NCBI GenBank assembly: GCA_013331215.1
Contig: DUGU01000223.1
Span: 1-13,290, forward strand
Direction: 5' to 3'
Source: Methanoregulaceae archaeon
GTDB taxonomy: Archaea; Halobacteriota; Methanomicrobia; Methanomicrobiales; Methanospirillaceae
DNA length: 13,290 nucleotides
The position numbers and the translations under genes were made by a program. This document shows, piece after piece, positions 267 to 13,290 of this stretch (position 1 is the first letter of the stretch; the number at the start of each line of letters is the position of its first letter). A model generated the notes under the pieces. The model had not been told where the DNA came from and did not search any database. It saw only the letters and a program-made list of their open reading frames with translations.

Positions 267-1628
267 ATGATCACAGCCTCGCGGATCCGGAGTATGGGAA
301 TCCTAGCAGTGCTGGTGCTGCTGCTCGCCGCATCGGCGGGATGCATGGGCTTCGGCTACTCCACGGCACGGGATATCGTCGTTCTCAAACTCGACGGCGA
401 CGGAATGCAGGAATGGACTCGCACGATCGACAGGGCTCCATACGATGCCGGCCAGGATATGGCCGAGCTGGCGGACGGTGAGTTCGTCGTCGTCGGACAG
501 AACGGCACGAGCTGGAGGTCGCCCGGATCTCCACGGGTGATCCGTCTCTCACCGGATGGAAAGGTGATCGCGGACAGGACGAGCGCGGGCGGGTTTCCAC
601 CTCGCGCGGTCGTTGCCGATCTGGACGGTGGTTATACTACCTTGCTGCAGAATGGCGAGCTGACGCGATTCGAACGCTCAGGAGCGGCTCTATGGACCTG
701 TACCACCGCTATGTGGGAGGCGTCCTCGCTGATCAAGCTCCGAGACGGAGGTTATCTCGTCGGCGGAGACTCCGCCGTCCAGGTCTGGGCGACGAACGAC
801 TCCTCGGTGACAGGCGAGCAGACCGTCCCGCAGCCCGTGATCACCACGGCCACGTCGGGAGGTTCGACCGCCTCCCTGGTGGATGCCGCACCGCTCGATG
901 CCGGCATCACGACTCTCCCCCGCGGAGCGGGCAGCCGTCCCACCACGCTGCCCGCGGTTGCCATCCCATCGTATAGACCCAGTACGATGGAGATGAGATC
1001 TCAGGCGGTGCGGTATTCGCCGGCTGGAACATTGGCATGGCAGCGGACGTACGAAACGGGGATCACTGCGGTCTGGTCCGCGTTCGAAGACCCGGTAGAC
1101 GGCACCCTGCTGCTCGCCGGGCCGGGTCCCGACACCGGCAGGGATTATACCATCGATCTTGGGATGCTGCACACCGATAGAGACGGAGTGGCTGGAGCCC
1201 TGATCCCGCTCGGTCAGGTCGAGTATCACGGGAGCATTCAGATGCGGGCTCTGTCCGACGGGCTCGAGGTGATCGCCAGTACGAAGAGCGCCGCACTCCC
1301 CCATCCAGCGTTCGGTGTCACCTCGGCCCTCCTCGATCCGGCAGGACGAGTGATCGCGGGACTGACCCTGAATGCCAGCCGCGTCTTCAACGGGACGAGC
1401 GACGGCGGATACATCTCCGTGGGCGTTCCCGTTGGGAATGGAGTGAGCGGCTACGATTCGGTAGTCTTCCTCGGCCCGAACGGATACACCGGCTTTCACG
1501 CTCTCCGGTTCGACGCGGCGGGAACTCTCGTCTGGGACCGTCCGTTGTCGATAGGCTCCATCCAGGAAGTTAAACGGGTGATCCAGACCGCGGATGGCGG
1601 CTACGCGATCCTCGCGATGAGCGTGTAG
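267..1628 (+). CDS. Putative lipoprotein with beta-propeller-like repeats
   Basis: A 453-aa predicted surface lipoprotein. Residues 1-25 form a signal peptide: an Arg-containing start, a hydrophobic core (GILAVLVLLLAAS), then SAGC with Cys26 as a relaxed lipobox. The mature part is built from about six or seven degenerate repeats. Each has a strand like LxxDxxGxxxW (for example LKLDGDGMQEW, VRYSPAGTLAW, LRFDAAGTLVW) followed about 25-30 residues later by DGGY and a small hydrophobic strand (DGGYTTLL, DGGYLVGG, DGGYISVG, DGGYAILA). This spacing is typical of PQQ-like or WD-like propeller blades, common in methanogen surface proteins. GGAAGGG at 252-258, 8 nt before the ATG, supports this start; the alternative ATG at 294 would shorten the basic region. 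There is no catalytic motif; binding or cell-envelope sensing is a guess. Confidence 0.8.
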   Translation: MITASRIRSMGILAVLVLLLAASAGCMGFGYSTARDIVVLKLDGDGMQEWTRTIDRAPYDAGQDMAELADGEFVVVGQNGTSWRSPGSPRVIRLSPDGKVIADRTSAGGFPPRAVVADLDGGYTTLLQNGELTRFERSGAALWTCTTAMWEASSLIKLRDGGYLVGGDSAVQVWATNDSSVTGEQTVPQPVITTATSGGSTASLVDAAPLDAGITTLPRGAGSRPTTLPAVAIPSYRPSTMEMRSQAVRYSPAGTLAWQRTYETGITAVWSAFEDPVDGTLLLAGPGPDTGRDYTIDLGMLHTDRDGVAGALIPLGQVEYHGSIQMRALSDGLEVIASTKSAALPHPAFGVTSALLDPAGRVIAGLTLNASRVFNGTSDGGYISVGVPVGNGVSGYDSVVFLGPNGYTGFHALRFDAAGTLVWDRPLSIGSIQEVKRVIQTADGGYAILAMSV

Positions 1629-9075: not shown

Positions 9076-10170
9076 TTATTCGAGCGGTCCCCACCGGTCC
9101 CTCAACTGCGTCTCGACCCCGGGTAGAGTCGTGTATTCCGTCTCCGGGAGCGAGAGCCGGTGCGGCTCGAACGGTCCGTGGGCCCCGAGCATGTCAGCGA
9201 GCTCGATGCACCTGCTCCGGACGAGGTCGAAGCCCGGGTCGTCGAACATGTCCGCGGGGCCGATCAGCTTTCCCTCGGAGACCTGGAACCCGAGGCAGGT
9301 CGCGCGCGGGGGGCCGTCGCCGACGGTGCAGCCCGCATCGCAGACGGCGACGGGCATCAGCGGAGCATGACGGCCACTCCGCAGCCCGCTGGCGATAAGG
9401 AACGGTGTCGTGAACGGGGTCAGGCACTCGCCGACGGCGGGAAACCCCGACTCCGATCGGACGATCATGACCGGGGCACTCGCACCGGCATGCATGCGTC
9501 CGGATCTGTCCGGGCGCGGGATCGAGGTCGAGGCAGCGATCGCGCCCTCCTTCGAGAAGACGTGCCGGACGACGTACCGCGACGACGCGCCGAGGCAGGC
9601 GAGCAGGTCGTACGACTCGTTCGGCGTCCGGAAAAAGGCCTTCCGGCACGCGATAAGGTCGTGGACCTCGAAGACGAACCCGTCGCGCATGGCCGGCTCG
9701 CGAACAAGCCCGGGCGTGGTGAAGGGGTCGGCGAAGGTTCGGAAGAGGTGGAAGTTCCAGGCGCCCGCCCGGGCCGGGGCGACCATGAACAAAAGCACGG
9801 GCTCCGACTCCCGCTCTTCGAACTCCATCTCGGCTGCCCCCTGGACGGCGTCCAGAGAAAAGTCCCGATCCACGCCGTGGAGCTTCAACCCCGTTGCGAT
9901 CTCCGCGCAGGAGTGGAGGACGTTGCCTGCCAGGCTGCGTACTTCCTCGTCGCCGACGCCACGCGCGTGGGTCATCACGAGCTCGAGCCCGGCGCCGCAG
10001 CGGGCGACGAACGAGTCGATGAGCAGCCCGCCTTCCTGCTCCTTCAGGCGCTTCGCCGCCTCCTCGAGCAGGCGCGGGTGGGCACGCGAGGGGCCCGGGA
10101 AGGACCCGACGCCGGCCCCGATAACGGAAATGGTGGTCTTCATCCCCTCACGGAGGAGTAGTTTCCGCAT
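9076..10170 (-). CDS. Degenerate FBP aldolase/phosphatase paralog, probably catalytically inactive
   Basis: This 364-aa protein aligns along its length with the archaeal bifunctional fructose-1,6-bisphosphate aldolase/phosphatase (class V FBPase). It keeps MKTTISVI, ADPFTTPGLV, DGFVFEV, PVMIVR, GPADMFDDP, HGPFEPHRL and EYTTLPGV. The active site is not kept. Using Sulfolobus numbering from memory, D11 is G20, H18 is P27, D52-D53 are A60-G61, Q95 is R102, D132 is A131, Y229 is H227, Schiff-base K232 is A230 and D233-D234 are S231-A232. The lid loop with SGNVRGLGPG is about seven residues shorter. The frame is intact, so this is not a decayed pseudogene. GGTGA lies 9 nt before the ATG at 10170; homologs start at the equivalent of the ATG at 10143. 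It sits behind intact aldolase and FBPase genes. A regulatory or ligand-binding role is a guess. Confidence 0.88.
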   Translation of the reverse strand: MRKLLLREGMKTTISVIGAGVGSFPGPSRAHPRLLEEAAKRLKEQEGGLLIDSFVARCGAGLELVMTHARGVGDEEVRSLAGNVLHSCAEIATGLKLHGVDRDFSLDAVQGAAEMEFEERESEPVLLFMVAPARAGAWNFHLFRTFADPFTTPGLVREPAMRDGFVFEVHDLIACRKAFFRTPNESYDLLACLGASSRYVVRHVFSKEGAIAASTSIPRPDRSGRMHAGASAPVMIVRSESGFPAVGECLTPFTTPFLIASGLRSGRHAPLMPVAVCDAGCTVGDGPPRATCLGFQVSEGKLIGPADMFDDPGFDLVRSRCIELADMLGAHGPFEPHRLSLPETEYTTLPGVETQLRDRWGPLE

Positions 10171-10241: not shown

Positions 10242-11129
10242 TTACCGGCAGCACGACGTCACCCGACAGATGATCGACTTACTGCCGATGTAGATGGGGA
10301 CCTTCTGGTGGACGCGCTCGGGCTGGACTTCGAGGAGGAGCCGCTCGCCGTCCGTGCAGACGCCGCCCGCCTCGTGTGCGAGGAACCCCATGGGGTTCGC
10401 CTCGAAGAGGAGGCGGAGCTTCCCTTCCTTTCCCGGCACGCAGGGATAGCAATAGACCCCGCCGTAGGTGAGGATCTGGTGGAAGTCGGCGACGAACGCG
10501 CCGGAGTACCGGAGCTTGCCGCCGTCCTGCTCGATACTCTCGATAAACCGGCAGTGGGCATCGGTCCAGGTGGGCTTCCCGCCGCCCGAACCGTAGAGCT
10601 TCCCCTCGGGCATCCGGACGTTCTCGTGGAGCATGCGGTACTGGCCGTCGTCGGCCAGCGCGAAGACCTGGACGCCCTCGCCGACGGAGAGCGTCAGCGT
10701 GGTCATGGGGCCGTAGAGTATGTAGAACGCGGCCTTCAGCCGCTCGCCGGGCTGAAGAACGGAGCCGTCGAAGACGCCGACGATAGTGCCGACGGCCAGG
10801 TTGACCTTGACAAGCGAGGAGCCGTCGAGCGGGTCCATGACGATGCCGAGCGTGCCGCGCGCGTTCGGGAACCGGACGATCTCCTCCTGCTCCTCCGAGG
10901 CGAGCTCTGCCACGAGCCCCGACGCCCCGATAACCCTGGTCAGGTGTCGGTCGGCCCAGATGTCCATGGCGGCCTGCTCCTCGCCCGAGACGTTCTCGGT
11001 TCCGACGTAGGCCTGGTTCGTGATGAACGCGGCCCGGATCGGCACGGCCTGGTCGGCGATCAGATCGATGAGGTCCTTGATGTCTTCCGAGGCGGCCGTA
11101 CCGTCGAGGTACTCGCGGAGCGTGACCAT
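10242..11129 (-). CDS. fbp: Fructose-1,6-bisphosphatase, class I type
   Basis: A 295-aa phosphatase that converts fructose-1,6-bisphosphate to fructose-6-phosphate in gluconeogenesis. The metal and phosphate motifs of the FBPase/inositol monophosphatase superfamily are present: SEE (78-80), DPLDGSS (99-105), the substrate-binding segment KLRYSGAFVADFHQIL (205-220) and LLFEANPMGFLAHEAGG (240-256), which supplies the late metal-binding Glu at 243. These are features of class I FBPase proper rather than of the archaeal IMPase-like FBPases. The ATG at 11129 lies 7 nt after the aldolase stop codon, with GTGAGG 5 nt upstream, so the two genes form an operon. The downstream neighbour is the degenerate FBP aldolase/phosphatase paralog. 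The last residues CRVTSCCR carry three cysteines, possibly redox-sensitive (speculative). Confidence 0.93.
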   Translation of the reverse strand: MVTLREYLDGTAASEDIKDLIDLIADQAVPIRAAFITNQAYVGTENVSGEEQAAMDIWADRHLTRVIGASGLVAELASEEQEEIVRFPNARGTLGIVMDPLDGSSLVKVNLAVGTIVGVFDGSVLQPGERLKAAFYILYGPMTTLTLSVGEGVQVFALADDGQYRMLHENVRMPEGKLYGSGGGKPTWTDAHCRFIESIEQDGGKLRYSGAFVADFHQILTYGGVYCYPCVPGKEGKLRLLFEANPMGFLAHEAGGVCTDGERLLLEVQPERVHQKVPIYIGSKSIICRVTSCCR

Positions 11130-12313: not shown

Positions 12314-13290
12314 TCAGAAGAAGATCTTCGCCATGGTGAAGAGGTCCATATCGACCGTCTTCAGGCGGCAGACATCGGCGAGCGGCACGGGCACGATCCG
12401 GTCCCCCTGCTGGGCCACCATGACGCCGAAGTTCCCCCCGGCGATCTGCTCGATCGCCGTGACGCCGAACCGCGAGGCGAGGACACGGTCGTGTGCCGTC
12501 GGAGAGCCGCCCCGCTGCACGTGCCCGAGGACGGTCACCCGCGTCTCTACGCCGAGCCGCCGCTCGAGTTCCCTGCCGAGAAGCTGGCCGATTCCCCCGA
12601 GTTGCTCGTGGCCGAACTCGTCGACCCTCTGCGATGAGGTCACGGCCTCGCTCATCTCCTTCGGCCTGGCCCCTTCGGCCACGACGACGATCGAGAACTT
12701 TTTTCCGCGGTTGAACCGGCCCCGGAGGCTGTCGCAGACCTCGTCGAAGTCGAAGGGAACCTCGGGGATGAGGATCTGGTCGGCACCGCCGGCGATGCCG
12801 GAGAAGGTCGCGATCCAGCCCGCGTGCCGCCCCATCACCTCGAGCACCATGATCCGCTGGTGGGACTCGGCCGTCGTGTGGAGGCGGTCGATGGCGTCCG
12901 TGACGATCGAGACGGCGGTATCGAACCCGAAGGTGTAGTCGGTGCAGGAGAGGTCGTTGTCGATGGTCTTCGGGATCCCGATCACCCGAATGCCCATCTC
13001 GTGCAATCGTGCGGCGACGCTCAGGGTATCGTCTCCCCCGATCGCGATCAGGACGTCGATCCCGAACTTCTCGAGGTGCATCAGCATCCGGGCGACGTCC
13101 TCCTCGCTCTTGAACGGGTTCGTCCGCGACGTGCCGAGGATGGTCCCTCCCTTGGGCAGGATCCCGGTGACCGAGCAGTCCGTGAGCGGCTCGACCTTGC
13201 CCTCGACGATCCCCTTCCAGCCGTTCCGGATCCCGATCACGGAGTAGTTGTGCCGGTGAGCGGTCTTGACGACCGCCCGGATGACCGCGT
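12314..13290 (-). CDS. 6-phosphofructokinase, probably pyrophosphate-dependent (5' partial)
   Basis: A PfkA-family phosphofructokinase that interconverts fructose-6-phosphate and fructose-1,6-bisphosphate. The frame runs off the right edge; 324 residues are visible, the first being AVIRAVVKTAHRHNYSVIG, so roughly the first 10-20 residues with the GGD(C/A)PGxN loop are missing. Motifs present are GILPKGGTILGTSR, GGDDT (codons near 13039-13025), PKTIDND with the catalytic Asp (near 12973-12953), MGRHAGWIA and LGHVQRGGSP. The residues at the two phosphoryl-donor positions are Asp (GGDD, where ATP enzymes have GGDG) and Lys (PKTIDND, where ATP enzymes have PGTIDND). In this family that pair marks pyrophosphate-dependent, reversible enzymes (EC 2.7.1.90). 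The GTG at 13240 is an internal Val codon, not the start. Confidence 0.92.
   Translation of the reverse strand, partial: AVIRAVVKTAHRHNYSVIGIRNGWKGIVEGKVEPLTDCSVTGILPKGGTILGTSRTNPFKSEEDVARMLMHLEKFGIDVLIAIGGDDTLSVAARLHEMGIRVIGIPKTIDNDLSCTDYTFGFDTAVSIVTDAIDRLHTTAESHQRIMVLEVMGRHAGWIATFSGIAGGADQILIPEVPFDFDEVCDSLRGRFNRGKKFSIVVVAEGARPKEMSEAVTSSQRVDEFGHEQLGGIGQLLGRELERRLGVETRVTVLGHVQRGGSPTAHDRVLASRFGVTAIEQIAGGNFGVMVAQQGDRIVPVPLADVCRLKTVDMDLFTMAKIFF

Follow-up and report, generated by a model that had tools for sequence, protein, structure and literature searches.

A gutted fructose-1,6-bisphosphate aldolase/phosphatase encoded beside class I fructose-1,6-bisphosphatase in Methanomicrobiales, a putative pseudoenzyme kept after its probable replacement

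The fructose-1,6-bisphosphate aldolase/phosphatase (FBPA/P, the class V FBPase; 3r1m, 1umg, 3t2b-3t2g) is discussed as an ancestral gluconeogenic enzyme, with a fold that we take to be unrelated to that of class I fructose-1,6-bisphosphatase (FBPase I). In the numbering of T. neutrophilus (TN), used here for all key residues, its metal-binding residues are presumably D11, H18, D52, D53, Q95, D132, D233, and D234, and we take Y229 and K232 to be the aldolase residues. FBPA/P has been described as bifunctional and as occurring in archaea and in bacteria of deep-branching lineages (PMC12965863). Among the matches listed from the open-licence literature (a scope outside which most subscription journals fall), no title concerned an FBPA/P that had lost its active site. 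We analyzed a 13,290-nt stretch of DNA (the window), which is the whole of contig DUGU01000223.1 from a Methanoregulaceae archaeon assembly (GCA_013331215.1, 66.5% complete), and in which an open reading frame (ORF) at 9076..10170 on the minus strand encodes such a gutted protein. It differs from FBPA/P in having no metal ligands, no Schiff-base lysine, and a trimmed lid region, and shorter gutted forms in other genomes additionally lack the lysine loop and the C-terminal segment. Directly upstream lies the gene for a normal-looking member of the class I family (PF00316), a family to which the gutted protein itself has no match in a Pfam search. Our preferred reading, to which we assign a probability of roughly 0.6, is that the gene encodes a pseudoenzyme: an FBPA/P displaced from its role and kept as a non-catalytic, probably accessory, partner of the FBPase I that replaced it. 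The constant link to FBPase I, the progressive shrinking of the protein, and its taxonomic breadth go beyond the original prediction made for this DNA.

The frame of the ORF is intact, giving 364 aa from the ATG at 10170 or 355 aa from M10 at 10143, where homology to the family begins. Residues 11-360 match PF01950 at 355 bits (cut-off 25), and the protein scores 299 bits against the solved enzyme 3r1m; judged by this homology, it is a full-length FBPA/P relative. With the equivalog-level model NF041126 (FBP_aldo_phos) it scores 345 bits, below the cut-off of 520. The original prediction of a full-length FBPA/P relative without its active site proved, if anything, understated: alignment places G, P, A, G, R, A, S, and A at the eight metal-ligand positions in the order given above, H and A at Y229 and K232, and G and P at K9 and K133, so that none of the eight ligands and neither aldolase residue is kept. 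These changes include those in the former N-terminal metal site (residues 18-27; 10090..10119, minus strand), where K9, D11, and H18 are G, G, and P, and in what we take to be the former Schiff-base loop (residues 219-233; 9472..9516, minus strand), where Y229, K232, D233, and D234 are H, A, S, and A. The region that we presume to be the lid loop (residues 98-113; 9832..9879, minus strand) has R in place of Q95 and was correctly predicted to be shortened, having 8 residues fewer than the intact Methanomicrobiales copies displayed (3 in one alignment, 5 in another). One terminator-like site falls within the gene, on its strand, in a promoter/terminator scan whose patterns are bacterial only and which is uninformative here.

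The pocket has been dismantled, and the rest of the protein is better kept. Relative to the intact same-genus homologue of genome G003 (65% identical), the window differs at all 12 key sites and at 107 of the 343 other sites (Fisher p = 1.4e-6). Across 94 distinct intact homologues, 98 alignment columns show conservation of at least 97%; the window protein retains 62 of these columns, and the 36 that it has lost include all 12 key positions. The only acidic residues within two positions of the lost ligands are D94 and D96 (flanking Q95) and E55, which intact copies have too; on this evidence, a supply of metal ligands by shifted residues, which would have overturned the original prediction, looks unlikely. 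The further remark that nine cysteines are many for this family did not hold, as the number ranges from 4 to 10 among 28 intact copies from Methanomicrobiales.

A search for orthologues with like substitutions had been suggested, and proteins with this kind of loss do exist in Methanomicrobiales: they include 15 eroded close relatives of the window, the genus Methanofollis (that of genome G049), and the family of genome G041 (which includes Methanocorpusculum). Close relatives were defined as proteins at least 63% identical to the window, of which there are 17 among the best 120 of 6145 database relatives passing the E-value (the window's own entry was set aside); all 17 were examined. Two are intact, with 12 of 12 key residues, and the 15 eroded ones keep 7, 4, 4, 4, 3, 3, 2, 2, 2, 1, 1, 1, 1, 0, and 0 of them, with non-catalytic motifs such as FADPF, DGPPR, and GPAD(M/L)FDDP retained in all 17. 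Since so many are eroded with these motifs kept, the erosion is, on this comparison, a property of the lineage and neither a sequencing error nor an isolated mutant. In genome G002, two contig ends carry overlapping pieces of the gene (L111, 1-266, and L129, 3328-4315). Their identities to the window are 86% and 66%, and their DNA sequences agree with each other at only 76%; they may be tandem copies or come from two strains.

It could be argued that the protein has remained catalytic, either by carrying out another reaction or by using a changed metal site, given that most gutted forms keep 1-3 acidic ligands and that variants from Deltaproteobacteria (see below) show the fold to be able to carry other residue sets. 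We consider this improbable: positions 18, 229, 232, 233, and 234 differ from protein to protein among the 17 close relatives, no new conserved residue set was found at the old catalytic positions when these were compared, and in the shorter forms that were aligned the 229 region is deleted in all and 232 in many. The earlier suggestion of another reaction at the old site is likewise unlikely, because several of the lost positions vary freely between close relatives.

In Methanofollis, a gutted homologue occurs in 12 of 12 genomes (258-274 aa where the FBPase is in view), and every copy keeps 1-2 of the 8 metal ligands and neither aldolase residue. In the G041 family, there is an FBPA/P match in 33 of 33 genomes; the locus was returned for 30, one of which is a contig-edge fragment, and all 29 copies checked are gutted (0-2 of 8 metal ligands, 0 of 2 aldolase residues). 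One genus has copies of 309-316 aa, and those of the other, whose members match records named Methanocorpusculum, Methanorbis, and Methanocalculaceae archaeon, measure 215-285 aa; the frame of locus L164 is 223 aa. The 367-aa proteins of L048, L050, and L054 are partly eroded and keep 4-5 of 8 metal ligands. Thus, the catalytic residues are lost in 30 of 30 gutted representatives and in 41 of 41 checked copies of the two groups, in addition to the 15 of 17 eroded close relatives, as would be expected of a pseudoenzyme, and the graded series found in nature, in which the count of key residues falls from all 12 to 7, 4, 3, and finally 0 and the length to 215 aa, makes the birth of a pseudoenzyme traceable. 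Databases, where they name the gutted proteins, call them fructose 1,6-bisphosphatase or aldolase/phosphatase; because the gutted proteins very probably cannot catalyse the FBPA/P reactions, automatic reconstructions of Methanofollis or Methanocorpusculum would assign the activity to the wrong protein.

All 10 catalytic residues are present in 96 of 109 fetched FBPA/P homologues (some genes were fetched twice). The other 13 include two fragments, one sequence that is start-cut or altered, gutted or partly eroded ones, and the deltaproteobacterial variants. The latter form a second variant group, from metagenome-assembled genomes (MAGs; L093, L094, L095, L102, and L109), in which D52 and D53 are kept, T replaces K9 where that position is present, N replaces D132, I, V, or A replaces Y229, and E replaces D234; by eye, the ORFs around the gene are alike in L093, L094, L102, and L109, and the group looks like another altered-function FBPA/P subfamily. 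In a Methanosphaera MAG (L081, 6001-7095), the FBPA/P active-site residues are intact and a stop lies within the matched frame.

The shorter gutted forms have also deleted the pocket loops, which makes the proposed sugar-phosphate sensor acting via the old pocket unlikely for the class. An alignment of 35 short-form sequences has invariant residues. For the 215-aa form, structure prediction gives a compact fold in which the core is kept. Weak Foldseek matches of this form to ACT-type proteins (e.g., acetohydroxyacid synthase small subunits; E ~0.008-0.03, probability 0.28-0.72) were not used as evidence.

The pseudoenzyme gene is the last of a same-strand cluster of four, all on the minus strand. 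At its head is a 6-phosphofructokinase (12314..13240; PF00365; PRK03202, 369 bits), followed by a class I (DeoC-type) aldolase, PRK06852 (11137..12177; PF01791; NF005321, 523 bits), which lies 7 nt upstream of the FBPase I (10242..11129; PF00316, PF18913); a motif check found that the last retains DPLDGSS, SEEQ, and KLRLLFE, which we take to be class I FBPase motifs. We examined 51 loci with gutted or partly eroded copies, comprising 5 from the window's genus, that of G009, 12 from Methanofollis, 30 from the 33 genomes of the G041 family, and 3 partly eroded ones. An FBPase I gene ends directly upstream, on the same strand, in 49 of the 51, and in the other two (L140 and L149) the contig ends first. 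The FBPase-to-pseudoenzyme gaps are -25 to +19 nt, except in G000 (+71) and G002 (+67); the other G002 piece (L129) is truncated short of the FBPase side. A 4-nt overlap between the FBPase stop and the start of the downstream gene is present in 10 of the 11 Methanofollis loci that allow the comparison, and also in the remaining one if the ATG is its start; the pseudoenzyme is probably translationally coupled to FBPase I in many genomes. The aldolase adjoins in the loci of the window's genus and G009, and in 10 of 11 testable Methanofollis loci.

Several further features of these neighborhoods were observed. Most homologues of the window aldolase align from residue 29-47 only, and its true start may be internal; among relatives, the ~40 extra N-terminal residues are matched at full length only by G002. 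The phosphofructokinase at the head of the window cluster and FBPase I are a possible futile-cycle pair; within the window's genus, the former occurs only in G000-G002. In a Methanoregula MAG (L040, 3878-7092), a more distant FBPase I is in a row with an intact FBPA/P and an ORF that by eye resembles a class II aldolase, so FBPase I also occurs near FBPA/P without erosion. Elsewhere in the window (267-1628), there is an ORF of 453 aa that has no Pfam match and whose N-terminus, by eye, is lipoprotein-like.

Ratios of nonsynonymous to synonymous substitution (dN/dS) were computed with the Nei-Gojobori method (NG86) for 76 pairs, with only pairs at least 70% identical kept outside the window's genus. 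They are 0.09-0.25 in the Methanocorpusculum-type genus, 0.11-0.13 in its sister genus, 0.21-0.48 in Methanofollis, 0.19-0.25 among the partly eroded copies, and 0.19-0.60 within the genus of the window, where the window and L111 give 0.19 over 88 codons (95% interval 0.08-0.35). In 75 of the 76 pairs the upper bound stays below 1; only the very close pair L138-L139 exceeds it (0.16-1.04). The linked FBPase I has the lower dN/dS in 75 of 76, which is every pair where it is defined. A protein already without its catalytic site is therefore under purifying selection, weaker than that on its active neighbor. With open frames and these ratios, the gene does not behave as a pseudogene, and the original view that selection maintains it is supported by the erosion series in its own clade, by the finding of a match in every one of the 45 genomes in two related groups, and by dN/dS below 1.

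Two alternatives are weighed by these data. The gene could be a decaying remnant, redundant, on its way out, and open by chance and operon position; it evolves faster than FBPase I in the same pairs, shortens progressively, and has left no relic in some relatives with FBPase I. We give this already disfavored account little credence, in view of its presence throughout the 45 genomes, the low dN/dS of Methanocorpusculum-type forms that had already lost the site, the compact predicted fold of the 215-aa form, and the 15 eroded relatives of the window with well-kept non-catalytic motifs. Alternatively, the frame could matter only at the level of RNA or translation, for example by stabilizing the FBPase I message, as the stop/start overlap might suggest; with purifying selection acting at the protein level and residues invariant across the 35 short forms, this is hardly credible.

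The states of FBPA/P and FBPase I were assigned by hand, and the following counts cover 48 of 61 genomes, those at least 90% complete. All 19 genomes without a class I FBPase match have an intact FBPA/P. Genomes with an FBPase I of the window's type have a gutted copy (12), a partly eroded copy (1), an intact copy (1, G003), or none (4), and those with more distant FBPase I types have an intact copy (6) or none (5). Gutted copies occur only alongside the window-type FBPase I, and none of the 48 genomes lacks both proteins. G003, which encodes this FBPase I immediately upstream of an intact FBPA/P, resembles the state before erosion. A search of fetched stretches with a profile of 38 sequences (30 gutted, 3 partly eroded, and 5 intact) found no FBPA/P relic near FBPase I in G037, G042, G047, G057, G017, G028, G035, G007, G011, or G031, and G001, whose scoring as absent is tentative and which is outside the 48 genomes, has no FBPA/P start in the ~146 nt beyond FBPase I at a contig end. 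As some relatives have FBPase I but yielded no such gene, keeping a pseudoenzyme is a possible result and not a necessary one. No second FBPA/P was found in the window's own genome (weak alone, given the incomplete assembly), nor an intact one in any of the other 14 genomes that carry a gutted copy, five of which (G009, G039, G044, G049, and G054) are assembled in 1-2 contigs; consequently, the mixed octamers with an active FBPA/P that had been suggested are unlikely.

In the FBPA/P tree, starred branches (99/96 and 100/100) set the partly eroded BL5/G052/SpSt-1212 group apart from the remaining gutted proteins. Subject to a long-branch warning, this suggests that erosion occurred at least twice; further counting of losses is unsafe because of the long branches flagged in the trees. 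In the FBPase I tree, G003, whose FBPA/P is intact, clusters with G004-G006 (87/77), which hints weakly that losses occurred separately within the window's genus.

The preferred sequence of events is as follows. FBPA/P would have been made redundant by the FBPase I and the separate aldolase of the same gene cluster, with the phosphatase step passing to FBPase I and the aldol step to the PRK06852 aldolase. The catalytic site would then have been dismantled, with the fold staying under purifying selection, and the protein would have been retained for a non-catalytic job, most likely as an accessory (regulatory, stabilizing, or scaffolding) subunit of the co-encoded FBPase I. Partnership with FBPase I is suggested by gene linkage: we infer binding to, or action on, FBPase I because it is the one neighbor in every testable locus, because of the stop/start overlaps, and because there is no intact FBPA/P partner. 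The data establish the loss of the catalytic residues, the conservation, the linkage, the selection, and, by prediction, the fold of a 215-aa form; loss of catalysis in vitro, physical binding to FBPase I, and the direction of any regulation are presumed. If the partnership is true, a replaced enzyme was recruited as a subunit of its own replacement. More tentatively, a displaced enzyme may have become the dedicated non-catalytic subunit of a non-homologous replacement, possibly several times in parallel in methanogens, and then shrunk to its structural core, with the likely task of restoring the control or the aldolase-to-FBPase channelling of the ancestral bifunctional enzyme.

The main rival to this proposal is a functional pseudoenzyme that is no subunit of FBPase I: it might, for example, act as a sensor on its own, regulate some other enzyme or gene, or carry a second function that FBPA/P had from its ancestor onward. 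The separate position of BL5/G052/SpSt-1212 in the tree, subject to its long-branch warning, suggests parallel losses, which would be expected with a pre-existing second function, and some FBPase I genes exist without the pseudoenzyme. We nevertheless think it less likely, given that FBPase I is the one constant neighbor in all 49 testable loci and that the substrate-pocket loops are deleted in the short forms.

Several observations weigh against the proposed partnership with FBPase I or temper the evidence for it. In the window, the gap of 71 nt (98 nt to M10) means that coupling is not tight there, and the aldolase was not seen next to the pseudoenzyme gene in the G041 (Methanocorpusculum) family loci. 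In four genomes of one family (G037, G042, G047, and G057), an FBPase I of this type is present and no FBPA/P relic is detectable, and FBPase I therefore has no universal need of the partner. Selection is relaxed in the window's genus (dN/dS 0.40-0.60 in 6 of 10 pairs), the closest pair there spans just 88 codons, and NG86 ignores codon bias and the pairs are not independent. The line delimiting the window-type FBPase I (type A, at least 57% identity) was set after the data had been seen, and the Fisher p of 1.7e-9 for the intact/gutted table is descriptive and ignores shared ancestry. Additionally, the alignment behind the structure model of the 215-aa form included intact homologues.

Retention of an inactive protein because it acts on a live partner, as we propose here, has likenesses elsewhere. 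The metformin hydrolase MetCa/MetCb is a pseudoenzyme-enzyme pair in which the dead subunit acts on the live partner (PMC11271267), and the same holds for the plant pair TSB-like/TSA (PMC12727527). The present case differs from both in the origin of the dead protein: MetCb belongs to the family of its partner and TSB-like is a paralogue of the usual partner of TSA, whereas the gutted FBPA/P descends from the very enzyme that its neighbor appears to have replaced.
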